Shown in pieces: positions 10,726 to 56,198 of a DNA stretch of 64,000 nt. How positions within the stretch are numbered: position 1 is the stretch's first letter; each line of letters opens with the position of its first letter. The position numbers and the translations under genes are program-made. The notes under the pieces were generated by a model. The model had not been told where the DNA came from, ran no database searches, and saw nothing but the letters and a program-made list of their open reading frames with translations. Origin of the DNA: Crossaster papposus (lineage: Eukaryota; Echinodermata; Asteroidea; Velatida; Solasteridae); NCBI GenBank assembly GCA_037893245.1, contig JBAIAA010000433.1, positions 1,178,001 through 1,242,000 on the forward strand, written 5' to 3'.

Positions 10726-11039
10726 CACTGACCTCTACAACTGGACGGACCATTGTCCATATTCTGCTGTGCTAACACTTGAAGTCGGCGCGAACTGGAA
10801 GTGCAACATGGCGGACCCGAGACGTCACTGCTGTGAGCCAATGAAATGTCCAGGTGTGGAGGTCAGCGGATTTATTCTGTACATTTTGTATTTTTAAACA
10901 TTACGTAATACGTATCGTACCAACACCTGGACATTTCATTGGCTCACAGAGTCACGTCGTGGGTCCGCCATGTTGTACTTCTCCGCATGCCGACTTCAAA
11001 ATGAAACAATGATGATCTGTCCATGTATAGAGGTCAGTG
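10726..11039 (+). mobile_element. hAT-like foldback MITE, copy 1 (long, forward)
   Basis: This 314 bp element begins CACTGACCTCTACA and ends TATAGAGGTCAGTG. The left arm (with GCGCGAACTGG) pairs imperfectly with the right arm (with CGCATGCCGACTTC), so the whole element can fold on itself. The centre holds TTTTTAAACATTACGTAAT. There is no reading frame of note, so it is non-autonomous. The 8-bp duplication suggests hAT, although the CACTG end is not the most typical hAT start and a P-type origin is possible. It is almost identical to copy 3, which lies 1,920 bp further on. Confidence 0.9.
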
Positions 11040-11680
11040 AGTGGAACCTATATGAATCAAAGATGGCGGCGCACTAAACTGTAGCGCGCCATTTTACGCG
11101 CCATTTTAGAACATCAAGTCCACCGCATTTATTTGTTTGAAGTGGTTACTGTATTTTAGGTAAATTTTCATTGTTTTGAGTCCCATTTTTCTCACCAAAG
11201 GTCCCAGTAAGTGCTATTAAAGGGTGCATGTGACTAAATCTGTGAAAATGACTGCGCGCGAGCTCATTAATATTTTGTGATCCCTCCGGTAATTTTGAAT
11301 AAGAGGTCCCTGGGGCCTATACATTGGTCTGATTGTAGAAATAATATTGTGGAAATCAAGAATTGGTGACCCGTGGCTTCCAACTCGGGGGATTTCGTTC
11401 ACAGAAAAGACCAATACCAGGGTCTATTTCGCATAGAGGCGGGGGGCTACATTAATACCTGGGCCCAGAGCTGGGCCACCAGTTTAGGGGTGGTTTGTGT
11501 GGAGGGGAGTATAAACAAAAATTCTTTCGGTCAACCCCCATAAATTTGAAAAGAAAATTGTTCTAGGTGATTTCCAGTCAAAAAAATATGGCCACTCTAC
11601 TCATGAGCATCACCAGGCGGCGCTTTTTCTTTCAATTTTTGAATTGGTTACAATGAGCGCCGTATTTAGTGTAGTGGAAC

Positions 11681-11995
11681 CACTGACTTCTATACATGGA
11701 CAGATCATCATTGTTTCATTTTGAAGTCGGCATGCGGAGAAGTGCAACATGGCGGACCCACGACGTCACTCTGTGAGCCAATGAAATGTCCAGGTGTTGG
11801 TACGATACGTATTACGTAATGTTTATAAAATACAAAATGTACAGAGTAAATCCACTGACCTCTACACCTGGACATTTCATTGGCTCACAACAGTGACGTC
11901 TCGGCTCCGCCATGTTGCACTTCCAGTTCGCGCCGACTTCAAGTGTTAGCACAGCAGAATATGGACAATGATCCGTCTAGGTGTAGAGGTCAGTG
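11681..11995 (-). mobile_element. hAT-like foldback MITE, copy 2 (long, reverse)
   Basis: This 315 bp element sits at the same monomer base with the same AGTGGAAC duplication (11,673-11,680 and 11,996-12,003), but inverted relative to copies 1 and 3 on either side. It begins CACTGACTTCTATACATGG and ends GGTGTAGAGGTCAGTG. The host monomer belongs to the 12-bp-deletion subfamily. Confidence 0.9.
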
Positions 11996-12645
11996 AGTGG
12001 AACCTATATGAATCAAAGATGGCGGCGCACTAAACTCTAGCGCGCCATTTTACGCGCCATTTTAGAACAGCAAGTCCACCGCATTTATTTGTTTGAAGTG
12101 GTTACTGTATTTTAGATAAATTTTCATTGTATTGAGTCCCCTTTTTCTCACCAAAGGCCCCAGTAAGTGCTATTAAAGGGTGCATGTGACTAAATCAGTG
12201 AAAATGACTGCGCGCGAGCTCATTAATATTTTGTGATCCCTCCGGTAATTTTGAATAAGAGGTCCCTGGGGCCTATACATTGGACTGATTGTAGAAATAT
12301 TTGTGGAAATCAAGAATTGGTGACCCGTGGCTTCCAACTCGGGGGATTTCGTTCACAGAAAAGACCAATACCAGGGTCTATTTCGCATAGAGGCGGGGGG
12401 CTACATTGATACCTGGGCCCAGAGCTGGGCCACCAGTTTAGGGGTGGTTTGTGTGGAGGGGAGTATATCAAAAATGTATTTGGTCAACCCCCATGAATTT
12501 GAAAAGAAAATTGTTCTAGGAGTCTTAATCTTTGATTTCCAGTCAAAAAAATATGGCCACTCTACTCATGAGCGTCACCAGGCGGCGCTCTTTCTTTTAA
12601 TTTTTGTGTTGGTTACAATGAGCGCCGTATTTAGTGTAGTGGAAC

Positions 12646-12959
12646 CACTGACCTCTACACCTGGACGGACCATTGTCCATATTCTGCTGTGCTAACACTT
12701 GAAGTCGGCGCGAACTGGAAGTGCAACATGGCGGACCCGAGACGTCACTGCTGTGAGCCAATGAAATGTCCAGGTGTGGAGGTCAGCGGATTTATTCTGT
12801 ACATTTTGTATTTTTAAACATTACGTAATACGTATCGTACCAACACCTGGACATTTCATTGGCTCACAGAGTCACGTCGTGGGTCCGCCATGTTGTACTT
12901 CTCCGCATGCCGACTTCAAAATGAAACAATGATGATCTGTCCATGTATAGAGGTCAGTG
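12646..12959 (+). mobile_element. hAT-like foldback MITE, copy 3 (long, forward)
   Basis: This is a 314 bp element nearly identical to copy 1, including CATGTTGTACTTC in the right arm where most copies have TTGCAC. It was therefore copied with its flanks rather than inserted anew. The AGTGGAAC duplication is at 12,638-12,645 and 12,960-12,967; the flank after it has mutated to AGTGGAACTTATATG. Confidence 0.9.
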
Positions 12960-15900
12960 AGTGGAACTTATATGAATCAAAGATGGCGGCGCACTAAACT
13001 GTAGCGCGCCATTTTACGCGCCATTTTAGAACATCAAGTCCACCGCATTTATTTGTTTGAAGTGGTTACTGTATTTTAGGTAAATTTTCATTGTTTTGAG
13101 TCCCATTTTTCTCACCAAAGGTTCCAGTAAGTGCTATTAAAGGGTGCATGTGACTAAATCAGTGAAAATGACTGCGAGCGAGCTCATTAATATTTTGTGA
13201 TCCCTCCGGTAATTTTGAATAAGAGGTCCCTGGGGCCTATACATTGGACTGATTGTAGAAATAATATTGTGGAAATCAAGAATTGGTGACCCGTGGCTTC
13301 CAACTCGGGGGATTTCGTTCACAGAAAAGACCAATACCAGGGTCTATTTCGCATAGAGGCGGGGGGCTACATTAATACCTGGGCCCAGAGCTGGGCCAGC
13401 AGTTTAGGGGTGGTTTGTGTGGAGGGGAGTATAAACAAAAATTCTTTCGGTCAACCCCCATAAATTTGAAAAGAAAATTGTTCTAGGTGATTTCCAGTCA
13501 AAAAAATATGGCCACTCTACTCATGAGCGTCACCAGGCGGCGCTTTTTCTTTCAATTTTTGAATTGGTTACAATGAGCGCCGTACTTAGTGTAGTGGAAC
13601 CTATATGAATCAAAGATGGCGGCGCACTAAACTCTAGCGCGCCATTTTACGCGCCATTTTAGAACATCAAGTCCACCGCATTTATTTGTTTGAAGTGGTT
13701 ACTGTATTTTAGGTAAATTTTCATTGTTTTGAGTCCCATTTTTCTCACCAAAGGTCCCAGTAAGTGCTATTAAAGGGTGCATGTGACTAAATCAGTGAAA
13801 ATGACTGCGCGCGAGCTCATTACTATTTTGTGATCCCTCCGGTAATTTTGAATAAGAGGTCCCTGGGGCCTATACATTGGTCTGATTGTAGAAATAATAT
13901 TGTGGAAATCAAGAATTGGTGACCCGTGGCTTCCAACTCGGGGGATTTCGTTCACAGAAAAGACCAATACCAGGGTCTATTTCGCATAGAGGCGGGGGGC
14001 TACATTAATACCTGGGCCCAGAGCTGGGCCACCAGTTTAGGGGTGGTTTGTGTGGAGGGGAGTATAAACAAAAATTCTTTCGGTCAACCCCCATAAATTT
14101 GAAAAGAAAATTGTTCTAGGTGATTTCCAGTCAAAAAAATATGGCCACTCTACTCATGAGCGTCACCAGGCGGCGCTTTTTCTTTCAATTTTTGAATTGG
14201 TTACAATGAGCGCCGTATTTAGTGTAGTGGAACCTATATGAATCAAAGATGGCGGCGCACTAAACTCTAGCGCGCCATTTTACGCGCCATTTTAGAACAT
14301 CAAGCCCACCGCATTTATTTGTTTGAAGTGGTTACTGTATTTTAGGTAAATTTTCATTGTTTTGAGTCCCATTTTTCTCACCAAAGGTCCCAGTAAGTGC
14401 TATTAAAGGGTGCATGTGACTAAATCAGTGAAAATGACTGCGCGCGAGCTCATTAATATTTTGTGATCCCTCCGGTAATTTTGAATAAGAGGTCCCTGGG
14501 GCCTATACATTGGTCTGATTGTAGAAATAATATTGTGGAAATCAAGAATTGGTGACCCGTGGCTTCCAACTCGGGGGATTTCGTTCACAGAAAAGACCAA
14601 TACCAGGGTCTATTTCGCATAGAGGCGGGGGGCTACATTAATACCTGGGCCCAGAGCTGGGCCACCAGTTTAGGGGTGGTTTGTGTGGAGGGGAGTATAA
14701 ACAAAAATTCTTTCGGTCAACCCCCATAAATTTGAATAGAAAATTGTTCTAGGTGATTTCCAGTCAAAAAAATATGGCCACTCTACTCATGAGCGTCACC
14801 AGGCGGCGGTTTTTCTTTCAATTTTTGAATTGGTTACAATGAGCGCCGTATTTAGTGTAGTGGAACCTATATGAATCAAAGATGGCGGCGCACTAAACTC
14901 TAGCGCGCCATTTTACGCGCCATTTTAAAACAGCAAGTCCACCGCATTTATTTGTTTGAAGTGGTTACTGTATTTTAGATAAATTTTCATTGTATTGAGT
15001 CCCCTTTTTCTCACCAAAGGCCCCAGTGAGTGCTATTAAAGGGTGCATGTGACTAAATCAGTGAAAATGAATGCGCGCGAGCTCATTCATATTTTGTGAT
15101 CCCTCCGGTAATTTTGAATAAGAGGGGCCTATACATTGGACTGATTGTAGAAATAATTGTGGAAATCAAGAATTGGTGACCCGTGGCTTCCAACTCGGGG
15201 GATTTCGTTCACAGAAAAGACCAATACCAGGGTCTATTTCGCATAGAGGCGGGGGGCTACATTAATACCTGGGCCCAGAGCTGGGCCACCAGTTTAGGGG
15301 TGGTTTGTGTGGAGGGGAGTATAAACAAAAATTATTTCGGTCAACCCCCATAAATTTGAAAAGAAAATTGTTCTAGGTGATTTCCAGTCAAAAAAATATG
15401 GCCACTCTACTCATGAGCGTCACCAGGCGGCGCTTTTTCTTTCAATTTTTGAATTGGTTACAATGAGCGCCGTATTTAGTGTAGTGGAACCTATATGAAT
15501 CAAAGATGGCGGCGCACTAAACTCTAGCGCGCCATTTTACGCGCCATTTTAGAACATCAAGCCCACCGCATTTATTTGTTTGAAGTGGTTACTGTATTTT
15601 AGGTAAATTTTCATTGTTTTGAGTCCCATTTTTCTCACCAAAGGTCCCAGTAAGTGCTATTAAAGGGTGCATGTGACTAAATCAGTGAAAATGACTGCGC
15701 GCGAGCTCATTAATATTTTGTGATCCCTCCGGTAATTTTGAATAAGAGGTCCCTGGGGCCTATACATTGGTCTGATTGTAGAAATAATATTGTGGAAATC
15801 AAGAATTGGTGACCCGTGGCTTCCAACTTGGGGGATTTCGTTCACAGAAAAGACCAATACCAGGGTCTATTTTGCATAGAGGCGGGGGGCTACATTAATA

Positions 15901-17427
15901 CCTGGGCCCAGAGCTGGGCCACCAGTTTAGGGGTGGTTTGTGTGGAGGGGAGTATAACAAAAATGTATTTGGTCAACACCCATGAATTTGAAAAGAAAAT
16001 TGTTCTAGGAGTCTTAATCTTTGATTTCCAGTCAAAAAAATATGGCCACTCTACTCATGAGCGTCACCAGGCGGCGCTCTTTCTTTTAATTTTTGTGTTG
16101 GTTACAATGAGCGCCGTATTTAGTGTAGTGGAACCTATATGAATAAAAGATGGCGGCGCACTAAACTGTAGCGCGCCATTTTACGCGCCATTTTAGAACA
16201 GCAAGTCCACCGCATTTATTTGTTTGAAGTGGTTACTGTATTTTAGGTAAATTTTCATTGTTTTAAGTCCCATTTTTCTCACCAAAGGTCCCAGTAAGTG
16301 CTATTAAAGGGTGCATGTGACTAAATCAGTGAAAATGACTGCGCGTGAGCTCATTAATATTTTGTGATCCCTCCGGTAATTTTGAATAAGAGGTCCCTGG
16401 GGACTATACATTGGACTGATTGTAGAAATAATATTGTGGAAATCAAGAATTGGTGACCCGTGGCTTCCAACTCGGGGGATTTCGTTCACAGAAATGACCA
16501 ATACCAGGGTCTATTTCGCATAGAGGCGGGGGGCTACATTAATACCTGGGCCCAGAGCTGGGCCACCAGTTTAGGGGTGGTTTGTGTGGAGGGGAGTATA
16601 ACAAAAATGTATTTGGTCAACCCCCATAAATTTGAAAAGAAAATTGTTCTAGGAGTCTTAATCTTTGATTTCCAGTCAAAAAAATATGGCCACTCTACTC
16701 ATGAGCGTCACCAGGCGGCGCTCTTTCTTTAAATTTTTGTGTTGGTTACAATTAGCGCCGTATTTAGTGTAGTGGAACCTATATGAATCAAAGATGGCGG
16801 CGCACTAAACTGTAGCGCGCCATTTTACGCGCCATTTTAGAACATCAAGTCCACCGCATTTATTTGTTTGAAGTGGTTACTGTATTTTAGGTAAATTTTC
16901 ATTGTTTTGAGTCCCATTTTTCTCACCAAAGGTCCCAGTAAGTGCTATTAAAGGGTGCATGTGACTAAATCAGTGAAAATGACTGCGCGCGAGCTCATTA
17001 ATATTTTGTGATCCCTCCGGTAATTTTGAATAAGAGGTCCCTGGGGCCTATACATTGGACTGATTGTAGAAATAATATTGTGGAAATCAAGAATTGGTGA
17101 TCCGTGGCTTCCAACTCGGGGGATTTCGTTCACAGAAAAGACCAATACCAGGGTCTATTTCGCATAGAGGCGGGGGGCTACATTAATACCTGGGCCCAGA
17201 GCTGGGCCACCAGTTTAGGGGTGGTTTGTGTGGAGGGGAGTATAACAAACATGTATTTGGTCAACCCCCATAAATTTGAAAAGAAAATTGTTCTAGGAGT
17301 CTTAATCTTTGATTTCCAGTCAACAAAATATGGCCACTCTACTCATGAGCGTCACCAGGCGGCGCTCTTTCTTTAATTTTTTGTGTTGGTTACAATGAGC
17401 GCCGTATTTAGTGTAGTGGAACCTATA

Positions 17428-17596
17428 TGAATCAAAGATGGCGGCGCACTAAACTGTAGCGCGCCATTTTACGCGCCATTTTAAAACAGCAAGTCCACCG
17501 CATTTATTTGTTTGAAGTGGTTACTGTATTTTAGGTAAATTTTCATTGTTTTGAGTCCCATTTTTCTCACCAAAGGCCCCAGTAAGTGCTATTCAA
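17428..17596. repeat. Truncated 169 bp monomer, copy 2
   Basis: It has the same 5' start and the same 3' break point as 9,920-10,088 (GTGCTATTCAA joined directly to TGAATCAAAG). The following monomer carries GGCGGGGCACTAAAC and AAATTTGTATTG. Confidence 0.88.
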
Positions 17597-18233
17597 TGAA
17601 TCAAAGATGGCGGGGCACTAAACTGTAGCGCGCCATTTTACGCGCCATTTTAGAACAGCAAGTCCACCGCATTTAATTTTTTGAAGTGGTTACTGTATTT
17701 TAGGTAAATTTGTATTGTTTTGAGTCCCATTTTTCTCACCAAAGGCCCCAGTAAGTGCTATTAAAGGGTGCATGTGACTAAATCAGTGAAAATGACTGCG
17801 CGCGAGCTCATTAATATTTTGTGATCCCTCCGGTAATTTTGAATAAGATGTCCCTGGGGCCTATACATTGGACTGATTGTAGAAATAATTGTGGAAATCA
17901 AAAATTGGTGACCCGTGGCTTCCAACTCGGGGGATTTCGTTAACAGAAAAGACCAATACCAGGGTCTATTTCGCATAGAGGCGGGGGGCTACATTAATAC
18001 CTGGGCCCAGAGCTGCGCCACCAGTTTAGGGGTGGTTTGTGTGGAGGGGAGTATAACAAAAATGTATTTGGTCAACCCCCATAAATTTGAAAAGAATATT
18101 GTTCCAGGAGTCTTAATCTTTGATTTCCAGTCAAAAAAATATGGCCACTCTACTCATGAGCGTCACCAGGCGGCGCTCTTTCTTTTAATTTTTGTGTTGG
18201 TTACAATGAGCGCCGTATTTAGTGTAGTGGAAC

Positions 18234-18496
18234 CACTGACCTCTATACATGGACAGATCCTCCATTGTTTCATTTTGAAGTCGGCATGCAGAGAAGTGCA
18301 ACATGGCGTCACTGCTGTGAGCCAATGAAATGTCCAGGTGTAGAGTTCAGTTGGTTGGTAAATCCACTGACCTCTACAACTGGACATTTCATTGGCTCAC
18401 AGCAGTGACGCCATGTTGCACTTCCAGTTCGCGCCGACTTCAAGTGTTAGCACAGCAGAATATGGACAATGATCTGTCCAGGTGTTGAGGTCAGTG
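18234..18496 (-). mobile_element. hAT-like foldback MITE, copy 4 (short, reverse)
   Basis: This is a 263 bp member of the short class. The central AT-rich segment with ATTACGTAAT is replaced by TTGGTTGGTAAATC. It begins CACTGACCTCTATACATGG and ends GTGTTGAGGTCAGTG. AGTGGAAC flanks it at 18,226-18,233 and 18,497-18,504. In one arm ACATGGCG is joined directly to TCACTGCTG, so about 10 bp are missing compared with copy 9. Confidence 0.9.
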
Positions 18497-20441: not shown

Positions 20442-20610
20442 TGAATCAAAGATGGCGGCGCACTAAACTGTAGCGCACAATTTTACGCGCCATTTTAGAA
20501 CAGCAAGTCCACCGCATTTAATTTGTTGAACTGGTTACTGTATTTTAGGTAAATTTTCATTGTTTTGAGTCCCATTTTTCTCACCGAAGGCCCCAGTAAG
20601 TGCTATTAAA
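20442..20610. repeat. Truncated 169 bp monomer, copy 3
   Basis: It has the same two break points as the other truncated monomers; here GTGCTATTAAA is joined to TAAATCAAAG, a G-to-A variant of the usual start. It carries GCGCACAATTTT and CTCACCGAAGG, so it is not a recent copy of the 17.4 kb fragment. Confidence 0.88.
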
Positions 20611-23600
20611 TAAATCAAAGATGGCGGCGCACTAAACTGTAGCGCGCCATTTTACGCGCCATTTTAGAACAGCAAGTCTACCGCATTTAATTTTTTGAAG
20701 TGGTTACTGTATTTTAGGTAAATTTGTATTGTTTTGAGTCCCATTTTTCTCACCAAAGGCCCCAGTAAGTGCTATTAAAGGGTGCATGTGACTAAATCAG
20801 TGAAAATGACTGCGCTCGAGCTCATTAATATTTTGTGATCCCTCCGGTAATTTTGAATAAGATGTCCCTGGGGCCTATACATTGGACTGATTGTAGAAAT
20901 AATTGTGGAAATCAAGAATTGGTGACCCGTGGCTTCCAACTCGGGGGATTTCGTTAACAGAAAAGACCAATACCAGGGTCTATTTCGCATAGAGGCGGGG
21001 GGCTACATTAATACCTGGGCCCAGAGCTGGGCCACCAGTTTAGGGGTGGTTTGTGTGGAGGGGAGTATAACAAAAATGTATTTGGTCAACCCCCATCAAT
21101 TGAAAAGAACATTGTTCTAGGAGTCCTAAATTTTGATTTCCAGTCAAAAAAATATGGCCACTCTACTCATGAGCGTCACCAGGCGGCGCTCTTTCTTTTA
21201 ATTTTTGTGTTGGTTACAATGATCGCCGTATTTAGTGTAGTGGAACCTATATGAATCAAAGATGGCGGCGCACTAAACTGTAGCGCGCCAATTTACGCGC
21301 CATTTTAGAACAGCAAGTCCACCGCATTTATTTGTTTGAAGTGGTTACTGTATTTTAGGTAAATTTTCATTGTTTTGAGTCCCATTTTTCTCACCAAAGG
21401 TCCCAGTAAGTGCTATTAAAGGGTGCATGTGACTAAATCAGTGAAAATGACTGCGCGCGAGCTCATTAATATTTTGTGATCCCTCCGGTAATTTTGAATA
21501 AGAGGTCCCTGGGGCCTATACATTGGACTGACTGTAGAAATAATTGTGGAAATCAAGAATTGGTGACCCGTGGCTTCCAACTCGGGGGATTTCGTTCACA
21601 GAAAAGACCAATACCAGGGTCTATTTCGCATAGAGGAGGGGGGCTACATTGATACCTGGGCCCAGAGCTGGGCCACCAGTTTAGGGGTGGTTTGTGTGGA
21701 GGGGAGTATAAAAAATAATTCATTTGGTCAACCCCCATAAATTTGAAAAGAAAATTGTTCTAGGAGTCTTAATCTTTGATTTCCAGTCAAAAAAATATGG
21801 CCACTCTAGTCATGAGCGTCACCAGGTGGCGCTCTTTCTTTCAATTTTTGTGTTGGTTACAATGAGCGCCGTATTTAGTTTAGTGGAACCTATATGAATC
21901 AAAGATGGCGGCGCACTAAACTGTAGCGCACAATTTTACGCGCCATTTTAGAACAGCAAGTCCACCGCATTTAATTTGTTGAAGTGGTTACTGTATTTTA
22001 GGTAAATTTTCATTGTTTTGAGTCCCATTTTTCTCACCGAAGGCCCCAGTAAGTGCTATTAAAGGGTGCATGTGACTAAATCAGTGAAAATGACTGCGCG
22101 CGAGCTCATTAATATTTTGTGATCCCTCCAGTAATTTTGAATAAGAGGTCCCTGGGGCCTATACATTGGACTGATTGTAGAAATAATATTGTGAAAATCA
22201 AGAATTGGTGACCCGTGGCTTCCAACTCGGGGGATTTCGTTAACAGAAAAGACCAATACCAGGGTCTATTTCGCATAGAGGCGGGGGGCTACATTAATAC
22301 CTGGGCCAAGAGCTGGTCCACCAGTTTAGGGGTGGTTTGTGTGGAGGGGAGTATAACAAAAATGTATTTGGTCAACCCCCATAAATTTGAAAAGAAAATT
22401 GTTCTAGGAGTCTTAATCTTTGATTTCCAGTCACAAAAATATGGCCACTCTACTCATGAGCGTCACCAGGCGGCGCTCTTTCTTTTAATTTTTGTGTTGG
22501 TTACAATGAGCGCCGTATTTAGTGTAGTGGAACCTATATGAATCAAAGATGGCGGCGCACTAAACTGTAGCGCGCCATTTTACGCGCAATTTTAGAACAG
22601 CAAGTCCACCGCATTTATTTGTTTGAAGTGGTTACTGTATTTTAGGTAAATTTTCATTGTTTTGAGTCCCATTTTTCTCACCAAAGGTCCCAGTAAGTGC
22701 TATTAAAGGGTGCATGTGACTAAATCAGTGAAAATGACTGCGCGCGAGCTCATTAATATTTTGTGATCCCTCCAGTAATTTTGAATAAGAGGTCCCTGGG
22801 GCCTATACATTGGACTGATTGTAGAAATAATATTGTGGAAATCAAGAATTGGTGACCCGTGGCTTCCAACTCGGGGGATTTCGTTCACAGAAAAGACCAA
22901 TACCAGTGTCTATTTCGCATAGAGGCGGGGGGCTACATTAATACCTGGGCCCAGAGCTGGGCCACCAGTTTAGGGGTGGTTTGTGTGGAGGGGAGTATAA
23001 CAAAAATGTATTTGGTCAACCCCCATAAATTTGAAAAGAACATTGTTCTAGGAGTCTTAATCTTTGATTTCCAGTCAAACAAATATGAATACTCTACTCA
23101 TGAGCGTCACTCTTTCTTTTAATTTTTGTGTTGGTTACAATGAGCGCCGTATTTAGTGTAGTGGAACCTATATGAATCAAAGATGGCGGCGCACTAAACT
23201 GTAGCGCGCCATTTTACGCGCCATTTTTGAACAGCAAGTCCACCGCATTTATTTGTTTGAAGTGGTTACTGTATTTTAGGTAAATTTTCATTATTTTGAG
23301 TCCCATTTTTCTCACCGAAGGCCCCAGTAAGTGCTATTAAAGGGTGCATGTGACTAAATCAGTGAAAATGACTGCGCGCGAGCTCATTAATATTTTGTGA
23401 TCCCTCCGGTAATTTTGAATAAGAGGTCTCTGGGGCCTATACATTGGACTTATTGTAGAAATAATATTGTGGAAATCAAGAATTGGTGACCCGTGGCTTC
23501 CAACTCGGGGGATTTCGTTAACAGAAAAGACCAATACCAGGGTCTATTTCGCATAGAGGCGGGGGGCTACATTAATACCTGGGCCCAGAGCTGGGCCACC

Positions 23601-24455: not shown

Positions 24456-24769
24456 CACTGACCTCTACACCTGGACGGACCATTGTCCATATTCTGCTGT
24501 GCTAACACTTGAAGTCGGCGCGAACTGGAAGTGCAACATGGCGGACCCGAGACGTCACTGCTGTGAGCCAATGAAATGTCCAGGTGTGGAGGTCAGCGGA
24601 TTTATTCTGTACATTTTGTATTTATAAACATTACGTAATACGTATCGTACCAACACCTGGACATTTCATTGCCTCACAGAGTCACGTCGTGTGTCCGCCA
24701 TGTTGCACTTCTCCGCATGCCGACTTCAAAATGAAACAATGATGATCTGTCCATGTATAGAGGTCAGTG
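24456..24769 (+). mobile_element. hAT-like foldback MITE, copy 5 (long, forward)
   Basis: This 314 bp element is flanked by AGTGGAAC at 24,448-24,455 and 24,770-24,777. Private changes TCATTGCCTCACAG and GTCGTGTGTCCG in the right arm are shared only with copy 6, consistent with both belonging to the large duplication. Confidence 0.91.
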
Positions 24770-26496: not shown

Positions 26497-26911
26497 CAAA
26501 CTCTTACCTCATTTTTTTAACAGCGTCTCAAAACCCCGCATCATGAATGCAATTGGCCAATCCACTATTTCTATTTCCCATTGTGTGCACACAAAATGCA
26601 AAACTCTAAACGCACTTGCCATAGCACAGATGCAATTTTCATTCTATTTTGACATTCTAGGCAAAACAGGTTGTTTTCTTCTCAACTGACTGTGTACCTT
26701 TCCTATTCGAAATACCGCAGTTGTGCATTGGGTAAATCATTGCATGCAAAATACTACGTACAGTGAGCAGTGTGTTTGTACAAAAGATAACGCCAGCACG
26801 ATGGGAGTTACTGCTCTTCACTGGCACAATTGAATAGGCCTACTACCAGAGCATAATGCTGTCCATTCCATCATACAAGGTAGAGATGATGAATGTTTAG
26901 TACTCATAACG

Positions 26912-26919
26912 TATATAAG
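26912..26919 (+). promoter_or_regulatory. Candidate TATA box of the relic transposase
   Basis: TATATAAG lies 32 bp before the first ATG of the relic reading frame (26,951). The short distance would leave almost no 5' leader if start sites were at the usual +30, so transcription may instead begin at or near the ATG. This is inferred from position only. Confidence 0.45.
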
Positions 26920-27036
26920 GGTTCCACTGAGCGCAATAGTTCTACGTAAAATGGAGCGAGAGGCAGGTATCAACGAGCGTCGTGCAAGAGACGGTGTCCG
27001 TGTGCGTGGTAGTAGGGCAGGAGGAAGAGTGCACAG

Positions 27037-27131
27037 GGGACGGGGAGGCAGGGAAGGAGGCAGGGAAGGGGAGAGGGAAAGATGCAGGGGAAAAGGCAGG
27101 GGAAGAGGCAGGGGAAGAGGCAGGGGAAGGA
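27037..27131 (+). repeat. Purine-rich minisatellite encoding Gly-Arg repeats
   Basis: A G/A-rich strand with a 12 bp motif GGCAGGGGAAGA, best preserved at 27,092-27,131 with looser copies upstream. In the relic transposase frame it reads Gly-Arg-Gly-Arg. Frames on the opposite strand give low-complexity Pro/Leu/Ser proteins that are not credible genes. Confidence 0.85.
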
Positions 27132-27265
27132 ATATGAATGTTCCAAATGAGATACGAGCATGATCACCGACCCCAAAACCAATTATCTCTACTGGACGCC
27201 ATGAATGCTGGTTGTGGGGATATCTCACTCGAGGACTGCCAAGGTTGGATACGTCATGCCAGAAG

Positions 27266-27556
27266 GTTCATTGTATTTATTTCTTTAGTATTTGATGTGG
27301 GTAACAGGGGCGGATCCAGGAATTTCGGTTAGAGGGGGCGCCAAAAATTGTCAACATAATGTATTGGGAGAAGATATGGGAGCGCAGGAGGCGCGAAGTC
27401 CCAACGCCGAGATCTTCTCAATCTTCTCGAGATTTTTTTAGGGGGGGCGCGCGCCGGGTGCGCCCCCCCCCCCCTGGATCCGCGCATGGGTAATGTGTGT
27501 ACATGAGCATTACTTTATTGTTTAGCGCAATAACATTTTCATCTGTTGTCCCACAG
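27266..27556 (+). other. Candidate GT-AG intron in the relic transposase
   Basis: The frame HAR-R breaks at AGAAG|GTTCAT (27,265/27,266) and resumes at CCCACAG|GTTTTTCC (27,556/27,557). Joining them restores R-R-F-F-P-R-C-L in phase. The 291 bp interval begins GT, ends CAG and has a pyrimidine-rich lead-in (TTTTCATCTGTTGTCCC). About 184 bp of it is a later MITE insertion, leaving about 107 bp of original intron. Splicing is inferred from frame continuity only. Confidence 0.6.
27305..27488. mobile_element. GC-rich MITE (184 bp) inside the transposase intron
   Basis: It begins CAGGGGCGGATCCAGG and ends CCTGGATCCGCGCATG; the ends are inverted repeats matching at 14 of 16 positions. GGTAA is found on both sides (27,300-27,304 and 27,489-27,493), possibly with flanking similarity up to TGGGTAA if the right edge is set slightly further in. 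The interior holds GGGGGGGCGCGCGCC and a long C run. The CAGGG terminus fits hAT-like MITEs, but the duplication length is uncertain. It has no coding capacity. Confidence 0.75.
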
Positions 27557-27713
27557 GTTTTTCCCTCGGTGCCTTTAGAGGCAACACATCAGATGCGATG
27601 TGGATGAAGTGCTTTGGCCAAACAGGGAGGAGAGAATGGATGCCCAATGAGAGTCCTGTGGAGCTTGACTACATTTGTCAGCAATGGGGCGATTGTCCCA
27701 AAAACTATACATA

Positions 27714-27719
27714 AATAAA
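27714..27719 (+). terminator. Candidate poly(A) signal (AATAAA)
   Basis: AATAAA lies 64 bp after the relic transposase stop at 27,650, with further AATAAA-like words at about 27,730 and 27,772 in an A-rich tract. Position fits the 3' end of the transposase transcript. Confidence 0.45.
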
Positions 27720-28108
27720 GAAATAACAAATAAAACAACAATACTACATGTACATGTATTACACAATATGTAATAAACGTAATACATTCAAGATACACAC
27801 CATCACAAATGTGTCTTTTCTTATATAGTGTGTCCATTTGTTGTTTACATTATCAGCAACACTATCACTCTGTCCAGTTTTGATGCAACTACTTTGCCAT
27901 TTGGGTATCGGTGTTCATGCAGCAATCAGAAGGAGCTGTGCATTTGGTTACATTGATGTAGCAATCGACTGACTTAGTGTATTTTGACGCCTGTTGTTAG
28001 CATTTTGATTGTTTTATTTGCTTTTGCACGGGTGGTACAGTGTTGTGAGAAATGCTTTCAGTGTTTTGGGGATTGCATTTTGAGTTTTGAGAAAGAGGTT
28101 ACTGTCTC

Positions 28109-28140
28109 GGGAAGTGCATCAAAGCAACTGAGAAAAACTG
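28109..28140 (-). repeat. Right terminal inverted repeat of the Tc1-like element
   Basis: Read on the minus strand it starts CAGTTTTTCTCAGTTGCTTT then GATGCACTT, mirroring the left end. It is followed by TA (28,141-28,142) and resumed satellite. Confidence 0.9.
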
Positions 28141-28379
28141 TAATACCTGGGCCCAGAGCTGGGCCACCGGGGTGGTTTGTGTGGATGGGAGTATACACAA
28201 AATTTCATTTGGTCAACCCCCATAAATTTGAAAAGAAAATTGTTCTAGGAGTCTTAATCTTTGATTTCCAGTCAAAATAATATGGCCACTCTACTCAAGA
28301 GCGTCACCAGGCGGCGCTCTTTCTTTCAATTTTTGTGTTAGTTACAATGAGCGCCGTATTTAGTGTAGTGGAACCTATA
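28141..28379. repeat. Divergent half-monomer right of the Tc1-like element
   Basis: This stretch completes the monomer interrupted by the transposon but differs from its neighbours: GCCACCGGGGTGG lacks seven bases (AGTTTAG), GTGGATGGG replaces GTGGAGGGG, GTATACACAAAATTTC replaces GTATAACAAAAATG, and ACTCAAGAGCG replaces ACTCATGAGCG. It has no counterpart in the second large duplication copy. Confidence 0.85.
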
Positions 28380-31300
28380 TGAATCAAAGATGGCGGCGCA
28401 CTAAACTATAGCGCGCCATTTTACGCGCCATTTTAGAACAGCAAGTCCACCGCATTTATTTGTTTGAAGTGGTTACTGTATTTTAGGTAAATTTTCATTG
28501 TTTTGAGTCCCATTTTTCTCACCAAAGGCACCAGTAAGTGCTATTAAAGGGTGCATGTGACTAAATCAGTGAAAATGACTGCGCGCGAGCTCATTAATAT
28601 TTTGTGATCCCTCCGGTAATTTTGAATAAGAGGTCCCTGGGGCCTATACATTGGACTGATTGTAGAAATAATATTGTGGAAATCAAGAATTGGTGACCCG
28701 TGGCTTCCAACTCGGGGGATTTCGTTCACAGAAAAGACCAATACCAGCGTCTATTTCGCATAGAGGCGGGGGGCTACATTAATACCTGGGCCCAGAGCTG
28801 GGCCACCAGTTTAGGGGTGGTTTGTGTGGAGGGGAGTATAACAAAAATGTATTTGGTCAACCCCCATAAATTTGAAAAGAACATTGTTCTAGGAGTCTTA
28901 ATCTTTGATTTCCAGTCAACAAAATATGAATACTCTACTCATGAGCGTCACTCTTTCTTTTAATTTTTGTGTTGGTTACAATGAGCGCCGTATTTAGTGT
29001 AGTGGAACCTATATGAATCAAAGATGGCGGCGTACTAAATTGTAGCGCGCCATTTTACACGCCATTTTAGAACAGCAAGTCCACCGCATTTATTTCTTTG
29101 AAGTGGTTACTGTATTTTAGGTAAATTTTCATTGTTTTGAGTCCCATTTTTCTCACCAAAGGCCCCAGTAAGTGCTATTAAAGGGTGCATGTGACTAAAT
29201 CAGTGAAAATGACTGCGCGCGAGCTAATTAATATTTTGTGATCCCTCCGGTAATTTCGAATAAGAGGTCCCTGGGGCCTATACATTGGACTGATTGTAGA
29301 AATAATATTGTGGAAATCAAGAATTGGTGACCCGTGGCTTCCAACTCGGGGGATTTCGTTCACAGAAAAGACCAATACCAGGGTCTATTTCGCATAGAGG
29401 CGGGGGGCTACATTAATACCTGGGCCCAGAGCTGGGCCACCAGTTTAGGGGTGGTTTGTGTGGAGGGGAGTATAACAAAAATGTATTTGGTCAACCCTCA
29501 TAAATTTGAAAAGAAAATTGTTCTAGGAGTCTTAATCTTTGATTTCCAGTCAAAAAAATATGGCCACTCTACTCATGAGCGTCACCAGGCGGCGCTCTTT
29601 CTTTTAATTTTTGTGTTGGTTACAATGAGCGCCGTATTTAGTGTAGTGGAACCTACATGAATCAAAGATGGCGGCGCACTAAACTGTAGCGCGCCATTTT
29701 ACGCGCCATTTTAGAACAGCAAGTCCACCGCATTTATTAGTTTGAAGTGGTTACTGTATTTTAGGTAAATTTTCATTGTTTTGAGTCCCATTTTTCTCAC
29801 CAAAGGCCCCAGTAAGTGCTATTAAAGGGTGCATGTGACTAAATCAGTGAAAATGACTGCGCGCGAGCTCATTAATATTTTGTGATCCCTCCGGTAATTT
29901 TGAATAAGAGGTCCCTGGGGCCTATACATTGGACTGATTGTAGAAATAATATTGTGGAAATCAAGAATTGGTGATCCGTGGCTTCCAACTCGGGAGATTT
30001 CGTTCACAGAAAAGACCAATACCAGGGTCTATTTCGCATAGAGGCGGGGGGCTACATTAATACCTGGGCCCAGAGCTGGGCCACCAGTTTAGGGGTGGTT
30101 TGTGTGGAGGGGAGTATAACAAAAATGTATTTGGTCAACCCCAATAAATTTGAAAAGAACATTGTTCTAGGAGTCTTAATCTTTGATTTCCAGTCAAAAA
30201 AATATGGCCACTCTACTCATGAGCGTCACCAGGCGGCGCTCTTTCTTTAATTTTTTGTGTTGGTTACAATGAGCGCCGTATTTAGTGTAGTGGAACCTAT
30301 ATGAATCAAAGATGGCTGCGCACTAAACTATAGCGCGCCATTTTATGCGCCATTTTAGAACAGCAAGTCCACCGCATTTATTTGTTTGAAGTGGTTACTG
30401 TATTTTAGGTAAATTTTCATTGTTTTGAGTCCCATTTTTCTCACCAAAGGCACCAGTAAGTGCTATTAAAGGGTGCATGTGACTAAATCAGTGAAAATGA
30501 CTGCGCGCGAGCTCATTAATATTTTGTGATCCCTCCGGTAATTTTGAATAAGAGGTCCCTGGGGCCTATACATTGGACTGATTGTAGAAATAATATTGTG
30601 GAAATCAAAAATTGGTGACCCGTGGCTTCCAACTCGGGGGATTTCGTTCACAGAAAAGACCAATACCAGTGTCTATTTCGCATAGAGGCAGGGGGCTACA
30701 TTAATACCTGGGCCCAGAGCTGGGCCACCAGTTTAGGGGTGGTTTGTGTGGAGGGGAGTATAACAAAAATGTATTTGGTCAACCCCCATAAATTTGAAAA
30801 GAACATTGTTCTAGGAGTCTTAATCTTTGATTTCCAGTCAAAAAAATATGAATACTCTACTCATGAGCGTCACTCTTTCTTTTAATTTTTGTGTTGGTTA
30901 CAATGAGCGCCGTATTTAGTGTAGTGGAACCTATATGAATCAAAGATGGCGGCGTACTAAATTGTAGCGCGCCATTTTACCCGCCATTTTAGAACAGCAA
31001 GTCCACCGCATTTATTTCTTTGAAGTGGTTACTGTATTTTAGGTAAATTTTCATTGTTTTGAGTCCCATTTTTCTCACCAAAGGCCCCAGTAAGTGCTAT
31101 TAAAGGGTGCATGTGACTAAATCAGTGAAAATGACTGCGCGCGAGCTAATTAATATTTTGTGATCCCTCCGGTAATTTCGAATAAGAGGTCCCTGGGGCC
31201 TATACATTGGACTGATTGTAGAAATAATATTGTGGAAATCAAGAATTGGTGACCCGTGGCTTCCAACTCGGGGGATTTCGTTCACAGAAAAGACCAATAC

Positions 31301-37350: not shown

Positions 37351-37664
37351 CACTGACCTCTACACCTGGACGGACCATTGTCCATATTCTGCTGTGCTAA
37401 CACTTGAAGTCGGCGCGAACTGGAAGTGCAACATGGCGGACCCGAGACGTCACTGCTGTGAGCCAATGAAATGTCCAGGTGTGGAGGTCAGCGGATTTAT
37501 TCTGTACATTTTGTATTTATAAACATTACGTAATACGTATCGTACCAACACCTGGACATTTCATTGCCTCACAGAGTCACGTCGTGTGTCCGCCATGTTG
37601 CACTTCTCCGCATGCCGACTTCAAAATGAAACAATGATGATCTGTCCATGTATAGAGGTCAGTG
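37351..37664 (+). mobile_element. hAT-like foldback MITE, copy 6 (long, forward)
   Basis: This is the counterpart of copy 5 in the second large duplication block, 12,895 bp away, with the same private right-arm changes. It is flanked by AGTGGAAC at 37,343-37,350 and 37,665-37,672. Confidence 0.91.
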
Positions 37665-47700: not shown

Positions 47701-48842
47701 TTAATACCTGGGCCCAGAGCTGGGCCACCAGTTTAGGGGTGGTTTGTGTGGAGGGGAGTATAACAAAAATGTATTTGGTCAACCCCCATAAATTTGAAAA
47801 GAAAATTGTTCTAGGAGTCTTAATCTTTGATTTCCAGTCAAAAAAATATAGCCACTCTACTCATGAGCGTCACCAGGCGGCGCTCTTTCTTTTAATTTTT
47901 GTGTTGGTTACAATGAGCGCCGTATTTAGTGTAGTGGAACCACTGACCTCTATACATGGACAGATCATCCATTGTTTCATTTTGAAGTCGGCATGCAGAG
48001 AAGTGCAACATGGCGTCACTGCTGTGAGCCAATGAAATGTCCAGGTATAGAGTTCAGTTGGTTGGTAAATCCACTGACCTCTACAACTGGACATGTCATT
48101 GGCTCACAGCTCACTTCCAGTTCGCGCCGACTTCAAGTGTTAGCACAGCAGAATATGGACAATGATCTGTCCAGGTGTTGAGGTCAGTGAGTGGAACCTA
48201 TATGAATCAAAGATGGCGGCGCACTAAACTGTAGCGCGCCATTTTACGCGCCATTTTAGAACAGCAAGTCCACCGCATTTATTTCTTTGAAGTGGTTACT
48301 GTATTTTAGGTAAATTTGTATTGTTTTGAGTCCCATTTTTCTCACCAAAGGCCCCAGTAAGTGCTATTAAAGGGTGCATGTGACTAAATCAGTGAAAATG
48401 ACTGCGCGCGAGCTCATTAATATTTTGTGATCCCTCCGGTAATTTTGAATAAGAGGTCCCTGGGGCCTATACATTGGACTGATTGTAGAAATAATATTGT
48501 GGAAATCAAGAATTGGTGACCCGTGGCTTCCAACTCGGGGGATTTCGTTCACAGAAAAGACCAATACCAGGGTCTATTTCGCATAGAGGCGGGGGGGCTA
48601 CATTAATACCTGGGCCCAGAGCTGGGCCACCAGTTTAGGGGTGGTTTATGTGGAGGGGAGTATAACAAAAATGTATTTGGTCAACCCCCATAAATTTGAA
48701 AAGAAAATTGTTCTAGGAGTCTTAATCTTTGATTTCCAGTCAAAAAAATATGGCCACTCTACTCATGAGCGTCACCAGGCGGCGCTCTTTCTTTTAATTT
48801 TTGTGTTGGTTACAATGAGCGCCGTATTTAGTGTAGTGGAAC
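44724..48842. repeat. Two-monomer higher-order repeat (1,289 bp), ~3 copies
   Basis: Units start at 44,724, 46,013 and 47,302. Shared markers include AATATAGCCACTC, TTCTTAAATTTTTTG with GGTTCCAATG, GTAGTAGAACC, AGACGGCGG and, in the later units, GGCGGGGGGGCTAC with GGTTTATGTGG. The third unit is interrupted by MITE copy 7 (249 bp plus 8 bp duplication) and its end is replaced by the monomer that carries MITE copy 8. Confidence 0.85.
47941..48189 (-). mobile_element. hAT-like foldback MITE, copy 7 (short, reverse)
   Basis: The 249 bp short-class element in the same orientation as copy 4, with a further loss in the right arm (GGCTCACAGCTCACTTCC, where copy 4 has CAGCAGTGACGCCATG between). AGTGGAAC flanks it at 47,933-47,940 and 48,190-48,197. 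Confidence 0.9.
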
Positions 48843-49156
48843 CACTGACCTCTACACCTGGACGGATCATTGTCCATATTCTGCTGTGCTAACACTTGAA
48901 GTCGGCGCGAACTGGAAGTGCAACATGGCGGACCCGAGACGTCACTGCTGTGAGCCAATGAAATGTCCAGGTGTAGAGGTCAGTGGATTTACTCTGTACA
49001 TTTTGTATTTATAAACATTACGTAATACGTATCGTACCAACACCTGGACATTTCATTGGCTCACAGAGTCACGTCGTGGGTCCGCCATGTTGCACTTCTC
49101 CGCATGCCGACTTCAAAATGAAACAATGATGATCTGTCCATGTATAGAGGTCAGTG
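48843..49156 (+). mobile_element. hAT-like foldback MITE, copy 8 (long, forward), reference
   Basis: This well-preserved 314 bp copy shows the architecture best. The terminal motif CACTGACCTCTACACCTGG at 48,843 recurs inverted at 48,965-48,985 (ending GGTCAGTG), as a partial motif CACCTGGACATTTC at 49,041, and at the right end (49,136-49,156). Each half can thus fold alone as well as with the other. Both arms carry ACATGGCGGAC and GCCAATGAAATG (or complements), and the centre has the palindrome ATTACGTAAT (49,017-49,026). AGTGGAAC flanks the element. Confidence 0.92.
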
Positions 49157-50451: not shown

Positions 50452-50724
50452 CACTGACCTCAACACCTGGACGGATCATTGTCCATATTCTGCTGTGCTA
50501 ACACTTGAAGTCGGCGCGAACTGGAAGTGCAACATGGCGTCACTGCTGTGAGCCAATGAAATGTCCAGTTGTAGAGGTCAGTGGATTTACCAACCAACTG
50601 AACTCTACACCTGGACATTTCATTGGCTCACAGAGTGACTTCGTGGGTCCGCCATGTTGCACTTCTCTGCATGCCGACTTCAAAATGAAACAATGGATGA
50701 TCTGTCCATGTATAGAGGTCAGTG
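50452..50724 (+). mobile_element. hAT-like foldback MITE, copy 9 (short, forward)
   Basis: This 273 bp short-class element is the inverted counterpart of copies 4 and 7, with centre GATTTACCAACCAACTG. It keeps the GGACCCACG segment missing from copy 4. AGTGGAAC flanks it at 50,444-50,451 and 50,725-50,732. Confidence 0.9.
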
Positions 50725-52020: not shown

Positions 52021-52334
52021 CACTGACCTCTATACATGGACAGATCATCATTGTTTCATTTTGAAGTCGGCATGCGGAGAAGTGCAACATGGCGGACCCA
52101 CGACGTGACTCTGTCAGCCAATGAAATGTCCAGGTGTTGGTACGATACGTATTACGTAATGTTTATAAATACAAAATGTACAGAATAAATCCGCTGTCCT
52201 CCACACCTGGACATTTCATTGGCTCACAGCAGTGACGTCTCGGGTCCGCCATGTTGCACTTCCAGTTCGCGCCGACTTCAAGTGTTAGCACAGCAGAATA
52301 TGGACAATGGTCCGTCCAGGTGTAGAGGTCAGTG
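52021..52334 (-). mobile_element. hAT-like foldback MITE, copy 10 (long, reverse)
   Basis: A 314 bp reverse-oriented long copy, beginning CACTGACCTCTATACATGG. AGTGGAAC flanks it at 52,013-52,020 and 52,335-52,342. It is close to copy 11 except for changes such as CTGTCAGCC and CGCTGTCCTCC. Confidence 0.9.
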
Positions 52335-54274
52335 AGTGGAACCTATATGAATCAAAGATGGCGGCGCACTAAACTGTAGCGCGCCATTTTACGCGCCATT
52401 TTAGAACAGCAAGTCCACCGCATTTATTTCTTTGAAGTGGTTACTGTATTTTAGGTAAATTTGTATTGTTTTGAGTCCCATTTTTCTCACCAAAGGCCCC
52501 AGTAAGTGCTATTAAAGGGTGCATGTGACTAAATCAGTGAAAATGACTGCGCGCGAGCTCATTAATATTTTGTGATCCCTCCGGTAATTTTGAATAAGAG
52601 GTCCCTGGGGCCTATACATTGGACTGATTGTAGAAATAATATTGTGGAAATCAAGAATTGGTGACCCGTGGCTTCCAACTCGGGGGATTTCGTTCACAGA
52701 AAAGACCAATACCAGGGTCTATTTCGCATAGAGGCGGGGGGGCTACATTAATACCTGGGCCCAGAGCTGGGCCACCAGTTTAGGGGTGGTTTGTGTGGAG
52801 GGGAGTATAACAAAAATGTATTTGGTCAACCCCCATAAATTTGAAAAGAAAATTGTTCTAGGAGTCTTAATCTTTGATTTCCAGTCAAAAAAATATGGCC
52901 ACTCTACTCATGAGCGTCACCAGGCGGCACTCTTTCTTTAATTTTTTGTGTTGGTTACAATGAGCGCCGTATTTAGTGTAGTGGAACCTATATGAATCAA
53001 AGATGGCGGCGCACTAAACTGTAGCGCGCCATTTTACGCGCCATTTTAGAACAGCAAGTCCACCGCATTTATTTCTTTGAAGTGGTTACTGTATTTTAGG
53101 TAAATTTTCATTGTTTTGAGTCCCATTTTTCTCACCAAAGGCCCCAGTAAGTGCTATTAAAGGGTGCATGTGACTAAATCAGTGAAAATGACTGCGCGTG
53201 AGCTCATTAATATTTTGTGATCCCTCCGGTAATTTTGAATAAGAGGTCCCTGGGGCCTATACATTGGACTGATTGTAGAAATAATATTGTGGAAATCAAG
53301 AATTGGTGACCCGTGGCTTCCAACTCGGGGAATTTCGTTCACAGAAAAGACCAATACCAGGGTCTATTTCGCATAGAGGCGGGAGGCTACATTAATACCT
53401 GGGCCCAGAGCTGGGCCACCAGTTTAGGGGTGGTTTGTGTGGAGGGGAGTATAACAAAAATGTATTTGGTCAACCCCCATAAATTTGAAAAGAAAATTGT
53501 TCTAGGAGTCTTAATCTTTGATTTCCAGTCAAAAAAATATGGCCACTCTACTCATGAGCGTCACCAGGCGGCGCTCTTTCTTTAATTTTTTGTGTTGGTT
53601 ACAATGAGCGCCGTATTTAGTGTAGTGGAACCTATATGAATCAAAGATGGCGGCGCACTAAACTGTAGCGCGCCATTTTACGCGCCATTTTAGAACAGCA
53701 AGTCCACCGCATTTATTTCTTTGAAGTGGTTACTGTATTTTAGGTAAATTTTCATTGTTTTGAGTCCCATTTTTCTCACCAAAGGCCCCAGTAAGTGCTA
53801 TTAAAGGGTGCATGTGACTAAATCAGTGAAAATGACTGCGCGCGAGCTCATTAATATTTTGTGATCCCTCCGGTAATGTTGAATAAGAGGTCCCTGGGGC
53901 CTATACATTGGACTGATTGTAGAAATAATATTGTGGAAATCAAGAATTGGTGACCCGTGGCTTCCAACTCGGGGGATTTCGTTCACAGAAATGACCAATA
54001 CCAGGGTCTATTTCGCATAGAGGCGGGGGGCTACATTAATACCTGGGCCCAGAGCTGGGCCACCAGTTTAGGGGTGGTTTGTGTGGAGGGGAGTATAACA
54101 AAAATGTATTTGGTCAACCCCCATAAATTTGAAAAGAAAATTGTTCTAGGAGTCTTAATCTTTGATTTCCAGTCAAAAAAATATGGCCACTCTACTCATG
54201 AGCGTCACCAGGCGGCGCTCTTTCTTTAATTTGTGTGTTGGTTACAATGAGCGCCGTATTTAGTGTAGTGGAAC

Positions 54275-54588
54275 CACTGACCTCTATACATGGACAGATC
54301 ATCATTGTTTCATTTTGAAGTCGGCATGCGGAGAAGTGCAACATGGCGGACCCACGACGTGACTCTGTGAGCCAATGAAATGTCCAGGTGTTGGTACGAT
54401 ACGTATTACGTAATGTTTATAAATACAAAATGTACAGAATAAATCCGCTGACCTCCACACCTGGACATTTCATTGGCTCACAGCAGTGACGTCTCGGGTC
54501 CGCCATGTTGCACTTCCAGTTCGCGCCGACTTCAAGTGTTAGCACAGCAGAATATGGACAATGGTCCGTCCAGGTGTAGAGGTCAGTG
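54275..54588 (-). mobile_element. hAT-like foldback MITE, copy 11 (long, reverse)
   Basis: A 314 bp reverse-oriented long copy. AGTGGAAC flanks it at 54,267-54,274 and 54,589-54,596. The host monomer has CTTTAATTTGTGTG upstream, different from that of copy 10. Confidence 0.9.
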
Positions 54589-55884
54589 AGTGGAACCTAT
54601 ATGAATCAAAGATGGCGGCGCACTAAACTGTAGCGCGCCATTTTACGCGCCATTTTAGAACAGCAAGTCCACCGCATTTATTTCTTTGAAGTGGTTACTG
54701 TATTTTAGGTAAATTTTCATTGTTTTGAGTCCCATTTTTCTCACCAAAGGCCCCAGTAAGTGCTATTAAAGGGTGCATGTGACTAAATCAGTGAAAATGA
54801 CTGCGCGCGAGCTCATTAATATTTTGTGATCCCTCCGGTAATGTTGAATAAGAGGTCCCTGGGGCCTATACATTGGACTGATTGTAGAAATAATATTGTG
54901 GAAATCAAGAATTGGTGACCCGTGGCTTCCAACTCGGGGGATTTCGTTCACAGAAAAGACCAATACCAGGGTCTATTTCGCATAGAGGCGGGGGGCTACA
55001 TTAATACCTGGGCCCAGAGCTGGGCCACCAGTTTAGGGGTGGTTTGTGTGGAGGGGAGTATAACAAAAATGTATTTGGTCAACCCCCATAAATTTGAAAA
55101 GAAAATTGTTCTAGGAGTCTTAATCTTAGATTTCCAGTCAAAAAAATATGGCCACTCTACTCATGAGCGTCACCAGGCGGCGCTCTTTCTTTTAATTTGT
55201 GTGTTGGTTACAATGAGCGCCGTATTTAGTGTAGTAGAACCTATATGAATCAAAGATGGCGGCGCACTAAACTGTAGCGCGCCATTTTACGCGCCATTTT
55301 AGAACAGCAAGTCCACCGCATTTATTTCTTTGAAGTGGTTACTGTATTTTAGGTAAATTTTCATTGTTTTGAGTCCCATTTTTCTCACCAAAGGCCCCAG
55401 TAAGTGCTATTAAAGGGTGCATGTGACTAAATCAGTGAAAATGACTGCGCGCGAGCTCATTAATATTTTGTGATCCCTCCAGTAATTTTGAATAAGAGGT
55501 CCCTGGGGCCTATACATTGGACTGATTGTAGAAATAATATTGTGGAAATCAAGAATTGGTGACCCGTGGCTTCCAACTCGGGGGATTTCGTTCACAGAAA
55601 AGACCAATACCAGGGTCTATTTCGCATAGAGGCGGGGGGCTACATTAATACCTGGGCCCAGAGCTGGGCCACCAGTTTAGGGGTGATTTGTGTGGAGGGG
55701 AGTATAACAAAAATGTATTTGGTCAACCCCCATAAATTTGAAAAGAAAATTGTTCTAGGAGTCTTAATCTTTGATTTCCAGTCAAAAAAATATGGCCACT
55801 CTACTCATGAGCGTCACCAGGCGGCGCTCTTTCTTTAATTTGTTGTGTTGGTTCCAATGAGCGCCGTATTTAGTGTAGTGGAAC

Positions 55885-56198
55885 CACTGACCTCTACACC
55901 TGGACGGACCATTGTCCATATTCGGCTGTGCTAACACTTGAAGTCGGCGCGAACTGGAAGTGCAACATGGCGGACCCGAGACGTCACTGCTGTGAGCCAA
56001 TGAAATGTCCAGGTGTGGAGGACAGCGGATTTATTCTGTACATTTTGTATTTATAAACATTACGTAATACGTATCGTACCAACACCTGGACATTTCATTG
56101 GCTCACAGAGTCACGTCGTGGGTCCGCCATGTTGCACTTCTCCGCATGCCGACTTCAAAATGAAACAATGATGATCTGTCCATGTATAGAGGTCAGTG
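55885..56198 (+). mobile_element. hAT-like foldback MITE, copy 12 (long, forward)
   Basis: A 314 bp forward long copy with TTCGGCTGTGC where others have TTCTGCTGTGC. AGTGGAAC flanks it at 55,877-55,884 and 56,199-56,206. It is only 1.3 kb from the oppositely oriented copy 11. Confidence 0.9.

Follow-up and report, generated by a model that had tools for sequence, protein, structure and literature searches.

Probable recurrent insertion of a foldback MITE, in both orientations, at a single base of a satellite repeat in Crossaster papposus

Results

The window, by which we mean the whole 64,000-bp stretch that was analysed (C433:1178001-1242000, contig JBAIAA010000433.1), holds an array of a satellite with a monomer of ~644 bp. 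When up to four substitutions are allowed, the motif at the left of the target site occurs 91 times in the window, and 12 of these sites are occupied by a miniature element (MITE). The other 79 are empty, and every one of them is exactly a single 8-bp site without a footprint. The 12 MITEs, seven forward and five reverse, are all placed at one identical satellite base, with identical target site duplications (TSDs), AGTGGAAC, on either side (Table 1). The first-pass annotation had listed these 12 copies with their starts, orientations, TSDs and common base, and all of this was confirmed; it had also pointed to the fixed site in both orientations as a puzzle, and the puzzle is real. What it had missed is that the MITE occurs in two forms, one long of 314-315 bp (n=9) and one short of 249-273 bp (n=3), which are 17-30 substitutions and 3-5 indels apart. 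Each form is present in both orientations at the satellite base, the short copies at 18234 and 47941 being reverse and the one at 50452 forward. The long copy at 11681 is a variant that is common to several other satellite copies, and the reverse copy at 52021 and the forward copy at 55885 have one variant in common that is absent from the other aligned long copies. The monomers flanking the copies at 24456 and 37351, which are 12,895 bp apart, show 0 differences, and from this it follows that a segment of the array was duplicated together with its insertion.

Table 1. MITE copies, target site and satellite features in the window
Feature	Position	Strand	Remark
MITE, long form, 314 bp; TSD AGTGGAAC at 10718-10725 and 11040-11047	10726..11039	+	
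MITE, long form, 315 bp; TSD AGTGGAAC on both sides	11681..11995	-	
MITE, long form, 314 bp	12646..12959	+	1 substitution compared to the 10726 copy
MITE, short form, 263 bp	18234..18496	-	
MITE, long form, 314 bp	24456..24769	+	same insertion as 37351
MITE, long form, 314 bp	37351..37664	+	duplicate of 24456, with its monomers
MITE, short form, 249 bp	47941..48189	-	
MITE, long form, 314 bp	48843..49156	+	4 differences from the consensus
MITE, short form, 273 bp	50452..50724	+	
MITE, long form, 314 bp	52021..52334	-	
MITE, long form, 314 bp	54275..54588	-	0 differences from dispersed copies
MITE, long form, 314 bp	55885..56198	+	
Empty target site, example, AGTGGAAC	58131..58138	.	1 of 79 empty sites
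Reference empty satellite monomer, 644 bp, phased to end at the target site	58139..58782	+	representative
TE-like unit in the monomer, GGGTGCATGTGACTAAAT ... ATTTAGTGTAGTGGAACC	58313..58783	+	boundary by eye

Most of the monomer is made up of a unit that resembles a transposable element (TE). By eye, monomer positions 175-644, followed by one or two C, could also be observed standing alone on other contigs, where the unit ends in imperfect terminal repeats (GGGTGCATGTGACTAAAT / ATTTAGTGTAGTGGAACC). On contigs C35 and C817 this host unit is flanked by CTAT on both sides. Going by its sequence, the satellite appears to consist of a transposon-like unit amplified in tandem, with a spacer of ~174 bp. 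The target base of the MITE falls within the right terminal repeat of the host unit, and the same base is occupied in lone or truncated host units on contigs C35, C193, C722 and C817 (within +-1.5 kb). These are probably extra events, since the insertion there interrupts the terminal repeat of the unit itself. On C193 (locus L064) the lone host unit and its MITE are, by eye, flanked by inverted copies of one sequence. The first ~170 bp of the monomer are tandemly duplicated at three places in the window (9919-10257, 17427-17762 and 20444-20779), and locus L070 has three tandem copies of them (1903-2416), as if the spacer between the host units was able to expand alone, by local duplications of ~170 bp. 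One monomer is interrupted by unrelated sequence, from some point after 26058 to ~28140 (26500-28400 was read), and measures 2317 bp from site to site as compared to the usual ~644; inside the interrupting sequence there is a purine-rich repeat of 12/24 bp, at 27037-27129.

With a length of 249-315 bp in the window, inverted termini, an 8-bp TSD and many dispersed copies, the element is a MITE, and at ~314 bp there is no room in it for a transposase. Its terminal inverted repeat (TIR) is CACTGACCTC, and for matching an autonomous partner it is CACTGACCTCTA. As single-stranded DNA the element is a strong foldback, with a fold of -94.8 kcal/mol as compared to a mean of -38.05 for shuffled sequences (z -15.76). 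The first-pass annotation had placed the first orientation-diagnostic bases about 13 bp inside the terminus; in a long copy the outer 12 bases of the two arms are identical, in a short copy the outer 10. On C669 (locus L065, 1004-1570) a satellite MITE carries a nested insert of ~250 bp with inverted-repeat ends, GGGCCCAATTTCTTGGCTC. The TIRs of hAT elements start like CAGNG; CACTGACCTC agrees with this at A2 and G5 and disagrees at position 3. The dispersed sites show a hAT-like tendency to nTnnnnAn in the 8-bp TSD, with T at position 2 in 39 of 74 strands (37 sites symmetrised) and, by symmetry, A at position 7 likewise, and they also show the P-like palindrome GT....AC. In the search for an autonomous partner, at least 110 matches to the hAT dimerisation domain PF05699 were obtained (150 of 204 candidates scored), none of which could be linked to the TIR of the MITE. 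Of 12 papers in the open-access literature that contain one of the terminal strings of the MITE, the 10 listed appear from their titles to be unrelated.

A MITE copy from the window was used as the query for a search of the 1.02-Gb assembly. The best 40 of 1300 candidates were scored, and of these 2 lie in the window and 38 elsewhere. All 38 were retrieved, 21 with long flanks and 17 with short flanks, and TSDs matching at 7-8 of 8 bases were found in 36 of them (20/21 and 16/17), nearly all of different sequence. Among the 21 copies with long flanks there was no monomer match of more than 100 bases at E 1e-10; for the 17 with short flanks, membership of the satellite was judged from the insertion sites. 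To judge from these sequences, the MITE family is one that moves generally through the genome. Being the best-scored 40, the sample is close to the consensus; a single dispersed short copy was available in addition to it. Two of the dispersed copies, on different contigs (C185:2781927, L025, and C162:72538, L090), have an identical target context of 40 bp; this could be due to duplication, or the two may lie in another repeat that also has a fixed site.

Further satellite copies were collected with junction queries, i.e. satellite plus element end, for which 40 of 710 forward and 40 of 403 reverse candidates were scored and the best 30 loci per orientation retained. One locus (L088 on C64), at first taken as dispersed under a strict pattern, was later counted as satellite. 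Together with the window, the junction loci give 61 distinct element stretches on 15 contigs, and 61/61 are at the site: 31 are forward, 29 reverse, and the one with the nested insert was left unscored. Both orientations are present on 4 of the contigs. Since these loci were picked by their junction, and equally per orientation, they show recurrence and not fidelity or exclusivity, and the 31:29 split, as a product of this sampling, is uninformative. The sample that was unselected by junction is the window, with 12/12 copies at the site and seven against five in orientation.

To compare flanks with elements we used 60 copies, the C669 copy with the nested insert being excluded, and kept 1710 of the 1770 pairs, namely those with at least 350 aligned flank columns. 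In 22 pairs the flanks showed no more than 3 differences over ~450 bases; 19 of these pairs agree in orientation and 3 are opposite. The 19 form nine duplicate groups, and their elements are identical in all cases. The 3 opposite pairs are effectively one comparison, in which a reverse short copy, present three times, is set against a single forward long copy from which it is 26 substitutions apart. Up to 10 flank differences, none of the opposite-orientation pairs among the 1710 compared had an identical element. Opposite pairs with 4 to 10 differences number 47. In 15 of these both copies have the same form, the closest being 1-2 substitutions apart and 0 identical. Same-orientation pairs in this range have identical elements in 0/41 cases as well, which means that flipping is put to a sharp test only by the class with at most 3 differences. 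Where the elements of an opposite pair are identical, there are at least 17 flank differences. On contig C79, two same-orientation pairs differ at 3 positions on 600-bp flanks and yet hold different forms, so that separate insertions are needed.

Flanking monomers in the window were scored in 22 cases; 10 of them had as nearest neighbour a monomer whose two sites are both empty, and 4 had their exact duplicate. The nearest forward and reverse left monomers, at 48843 and 52021, have 5 differences, and their elements are 6 substitutions apart. Between the reverse copy at 52021 and the forward copy at 55885, with their common variant, there are 6 flank differences; going by the sequences, a flip or a local hop may have taken place there. 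Two further sets of forward and reverse copies have rare variants in common. Dispersed long copies at distance 0 exist both for the forward copy at C433:1143453 and for the reverse copy at C433:1232275 (54275 in the window), and a dispersed short copy at distance 0 exists for the forward short copy at C433:935924.

On one flank tree, the alignment of which takes in truncated host copies, orientation required 13 parsimony changes, as compared to a mean of 20.2 and a minimum of 12 when shuffled. Orientation is thus somewhat clustered on the flank tree, as duplication predicts, and it is far from two events. The satellite insertions form 43 clusters by exact sequence and indels, 32 within 1 substitution and 19 within 3. 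The minimum is four events at one base, since there are two forms in two orientations and both forms are also dispersed. Some of the same-orientation copies may owe their spread to gene conversion between monomers, by which site and orientation are kept.

A model of the target was trained on dispersed insertions, 37 sites of which 36 are distinct, including that of one short copy. The second copy on C231 and locus L098 on C64, both without a good TSD, were left out. Where two 40-mer sites were identical, only one of them entered the orientation-fitted models and the symmetrised models of three widths. From dispersed insertions alone, the motif is a weak palindrome, GnGTnnnnACnC, with G at -2, G-T at TSD positions 1-2, A-C at 7-8 and C at +9. 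The satellite base ranked 3, 2 and 1 of 644 in the symmetrised models, 1st-4th of 644 over model widths of 12 to 32 bases, and 2, 1, 1, 1 and 1 of 1288 in the orientation-fitted models of five widths; a model of the 8-bp TSD only placed it outside the first five. In 60 control models fitted to random sites, with 4 starts per model as compared to 60 for the real ones, the best rank was 18 and the median 274.5 of 644, and among 1000 column-permuted motifs a rank of 2 or better was reached in 0.1% and of 4 or better in 0.3%.

The share of insertions predicted at the satellite base is 18% at the best width and 13% and 5% at two others, with a bootstrap range of 5-37%. A rival position, at ~330 of the monomer, scores similar or higher and is used by 0 of the window copies. 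The chance of four hits at the satellite base would be ~0.001 at a share of 18% and 0.02 at 37%. As the full cause the local motif is insufficient, 5-37% being predicted and 12/12 seen, and this low share suggests a further determinant in the array. A palindromic target is blind to orientation, and both orientations are therefore to be expected. Two other causes were considered and rejected. A hairpin at the target site does not seem to be the lure, since the single strand of the empty site has a z of -1.36 and 21/200 shuffles were equal or better. Nor did a general preference for TE ends appear; by eye only, the site at L003 resembles such an end and the other inspected sites were unremarkable.

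Discussion

The copies are most probably the result of recurrent insertion of the MITE at one satellite base, combined with duplication within the array. The sharp test of flipping involves few opposite pairs, and we hold this explanation with slightly lower confidence for that. As a part of it, the element would be a non-autonomous foldback MITE with an 8-bp TSD, moved by hAT- or P-like cut-and-paste. An abundant tandem repeat would have received it in several separate insertions at an identical base, guided by a palindromic target preference that is near the top of the 644 positions here and that leaves orientation free. Amplification of the array has duplicated some of the same-orientation copies. 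Many near-identical targets, together with a further determinant, may turn this mild preference into a near-exclusive one. Independent insertion with high target fidelity had been one of the alternatives in the first-pass annotation, and it is supported by the two forms in two orientations and by the dispersed relatives at distance 0.

It is also conceivable that the element inverts in place, by recombination between its arms or by processing of a hairpin or cruciform, and that one insertion in this way gives both orientations. The strong foldback (-94.8 kcal/mol), the 10-12 identical outer bases and the variant common to forward 55885 and reverse 52021 speak for such a flip, but none of the 22 closest pairs (3 flank differences or fewer) holds the same element inverted, the two forms in both orientations require at least two insertions regardless, and for one long copy in each orientation there are dispersed copies at distance 0. 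Close opposite pairs are few; still, with no near-identical flanks around the same element inverted, the earlier suggestion that the element flips in place was not upheld, and we regard it as quite improbable. Unlikely, too, is a history with one old insertion per orientation, which unequal exchange and gene conversion then multiplied along with its monomer. Such copying does take place, as is seen in the nine duplicate groups with 0-3 flank differences and identical elements (24456/37351 and the triplets on C433, C248, C553 and C817, for instance), and orientation is clustered beyond the shuffles (13 changes against a mean of 20.2, minimum 12). Against this history stand the presence of two forms per orientation, the dispersed copies that match satellite copies at distance 0, and the same 13 orientation changes, counted on one tree that includes truncated host copies. 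A derivation from two old insertions in two monomer lineages, which the annotation had also considered, does not fit the two forms per orientation and the 13 changes either.

A transposase dedicated to the satellite or the host unit, with strict site specificity, would put 12/12 window copies on one base and would also use the same base in the lone or truncated units on C35, C193, C722 and C817 (+-1.5 kb). Yet 38 of the best 40 scored matches, out of 1300 candidates, are non-window copies elsewhere, and 36/38 have good and diverse TSDs, which makes a dedicated transposase barely credible. With the family at dozens of other sites, between different 8-bp duplications, the satellite-specific transposase that had been proposed is contradicted for the family as a whole. 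Copies at other sites with unrelated TSDs, the observation named beforehand as speaking against it, were indeed found; the lack of any satellite preference named along with them was not, and a preference for the satellite base remains.

For recurrent insertion, the further determinant would most likely be nucleosomes phased on the satellite that expose the base, or a feature of the terminal repeat of the host unit. Phased nucleosomes are our first choice, and the natural hot spot of the Mboumar transposon, which was unseen on naked DNA in the passages available from that study, points likewise (PMC2581405). It is possible, and we propose it tentatively, that a mildly selective DNA transposon acts as a site-specific one in the satellite because something about the array beyond the local motif leaves one base accessible in each 644-bp repeat; this could be phased chromatin, a protein bound there or the ends of the host unit. 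If this is true, the satellite would provide a cut-and-paste element with a landing pad that replenishes itself. Copies at a fixed site of a satellite can pass for one amplified insertion, and it is orientation, subfamily and flanks jointly that tell repeated insertion from amplification here. The array may also serve as a natural assay, with many near-identical targets, for the contributions of local motif and of chromatin or array context to transposon targeting.

In the open-access literature searched there is one close precedent, the Mboumar mariner element in the satellite IRE-130 of Messor bouvieri. In the relevant passages of that study, five copies are found at one TA of the MITE-like IRE-130; in vitro, 3/53 insertions fell in the unit, 1 of them at the favoured TA, and the authors suspected a hot spot and turned to chromosome organisation (PMC2581405). 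The likeness is that transposon copies sit at one point of a TE-like satellite unit. Mboumar is a mariner with a TA target and four TAs in the unit, whereas here there is an 8-bp TSD, two forms and both orientations, and the same passages leave inheritance and repeated insertion unseparated, in contrast to the test of flank versus element made here (PMC2581405). Palindromic target motifs are described in Drosophila for hobo (GTNCGNAC) and the P element (GTCCGGAC), in the part of that work drawn on (PMC3276498). The MITE resembles both in its 8-bp TSD and in a palindromic GT....AC motif that reaches past the TSD, but its motif is weak, with G at -2 and C at +9 (PMC3276498). Galileo, a foldback-like element of the P superfamily, also has long inverted arms and a palindromic target motif; it is a Drosophila element with mostly 7-bp TSDs (GTATTAC), not the 8 bp of the MITE, and a satellite hot spot goes unmentioned in the passages drawn on (PMC4168063). 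Tandem arrays that are built from or carried by a mobile element are likewise described, in the excerpts at hand, for Tetris (PMC4079207) and for the HINE arrays of oysters (PMC7492417). There the TE supplies the satellite, whereas here a second, unrelated MITE strikes the single base of a monomer that is itself TE-like.
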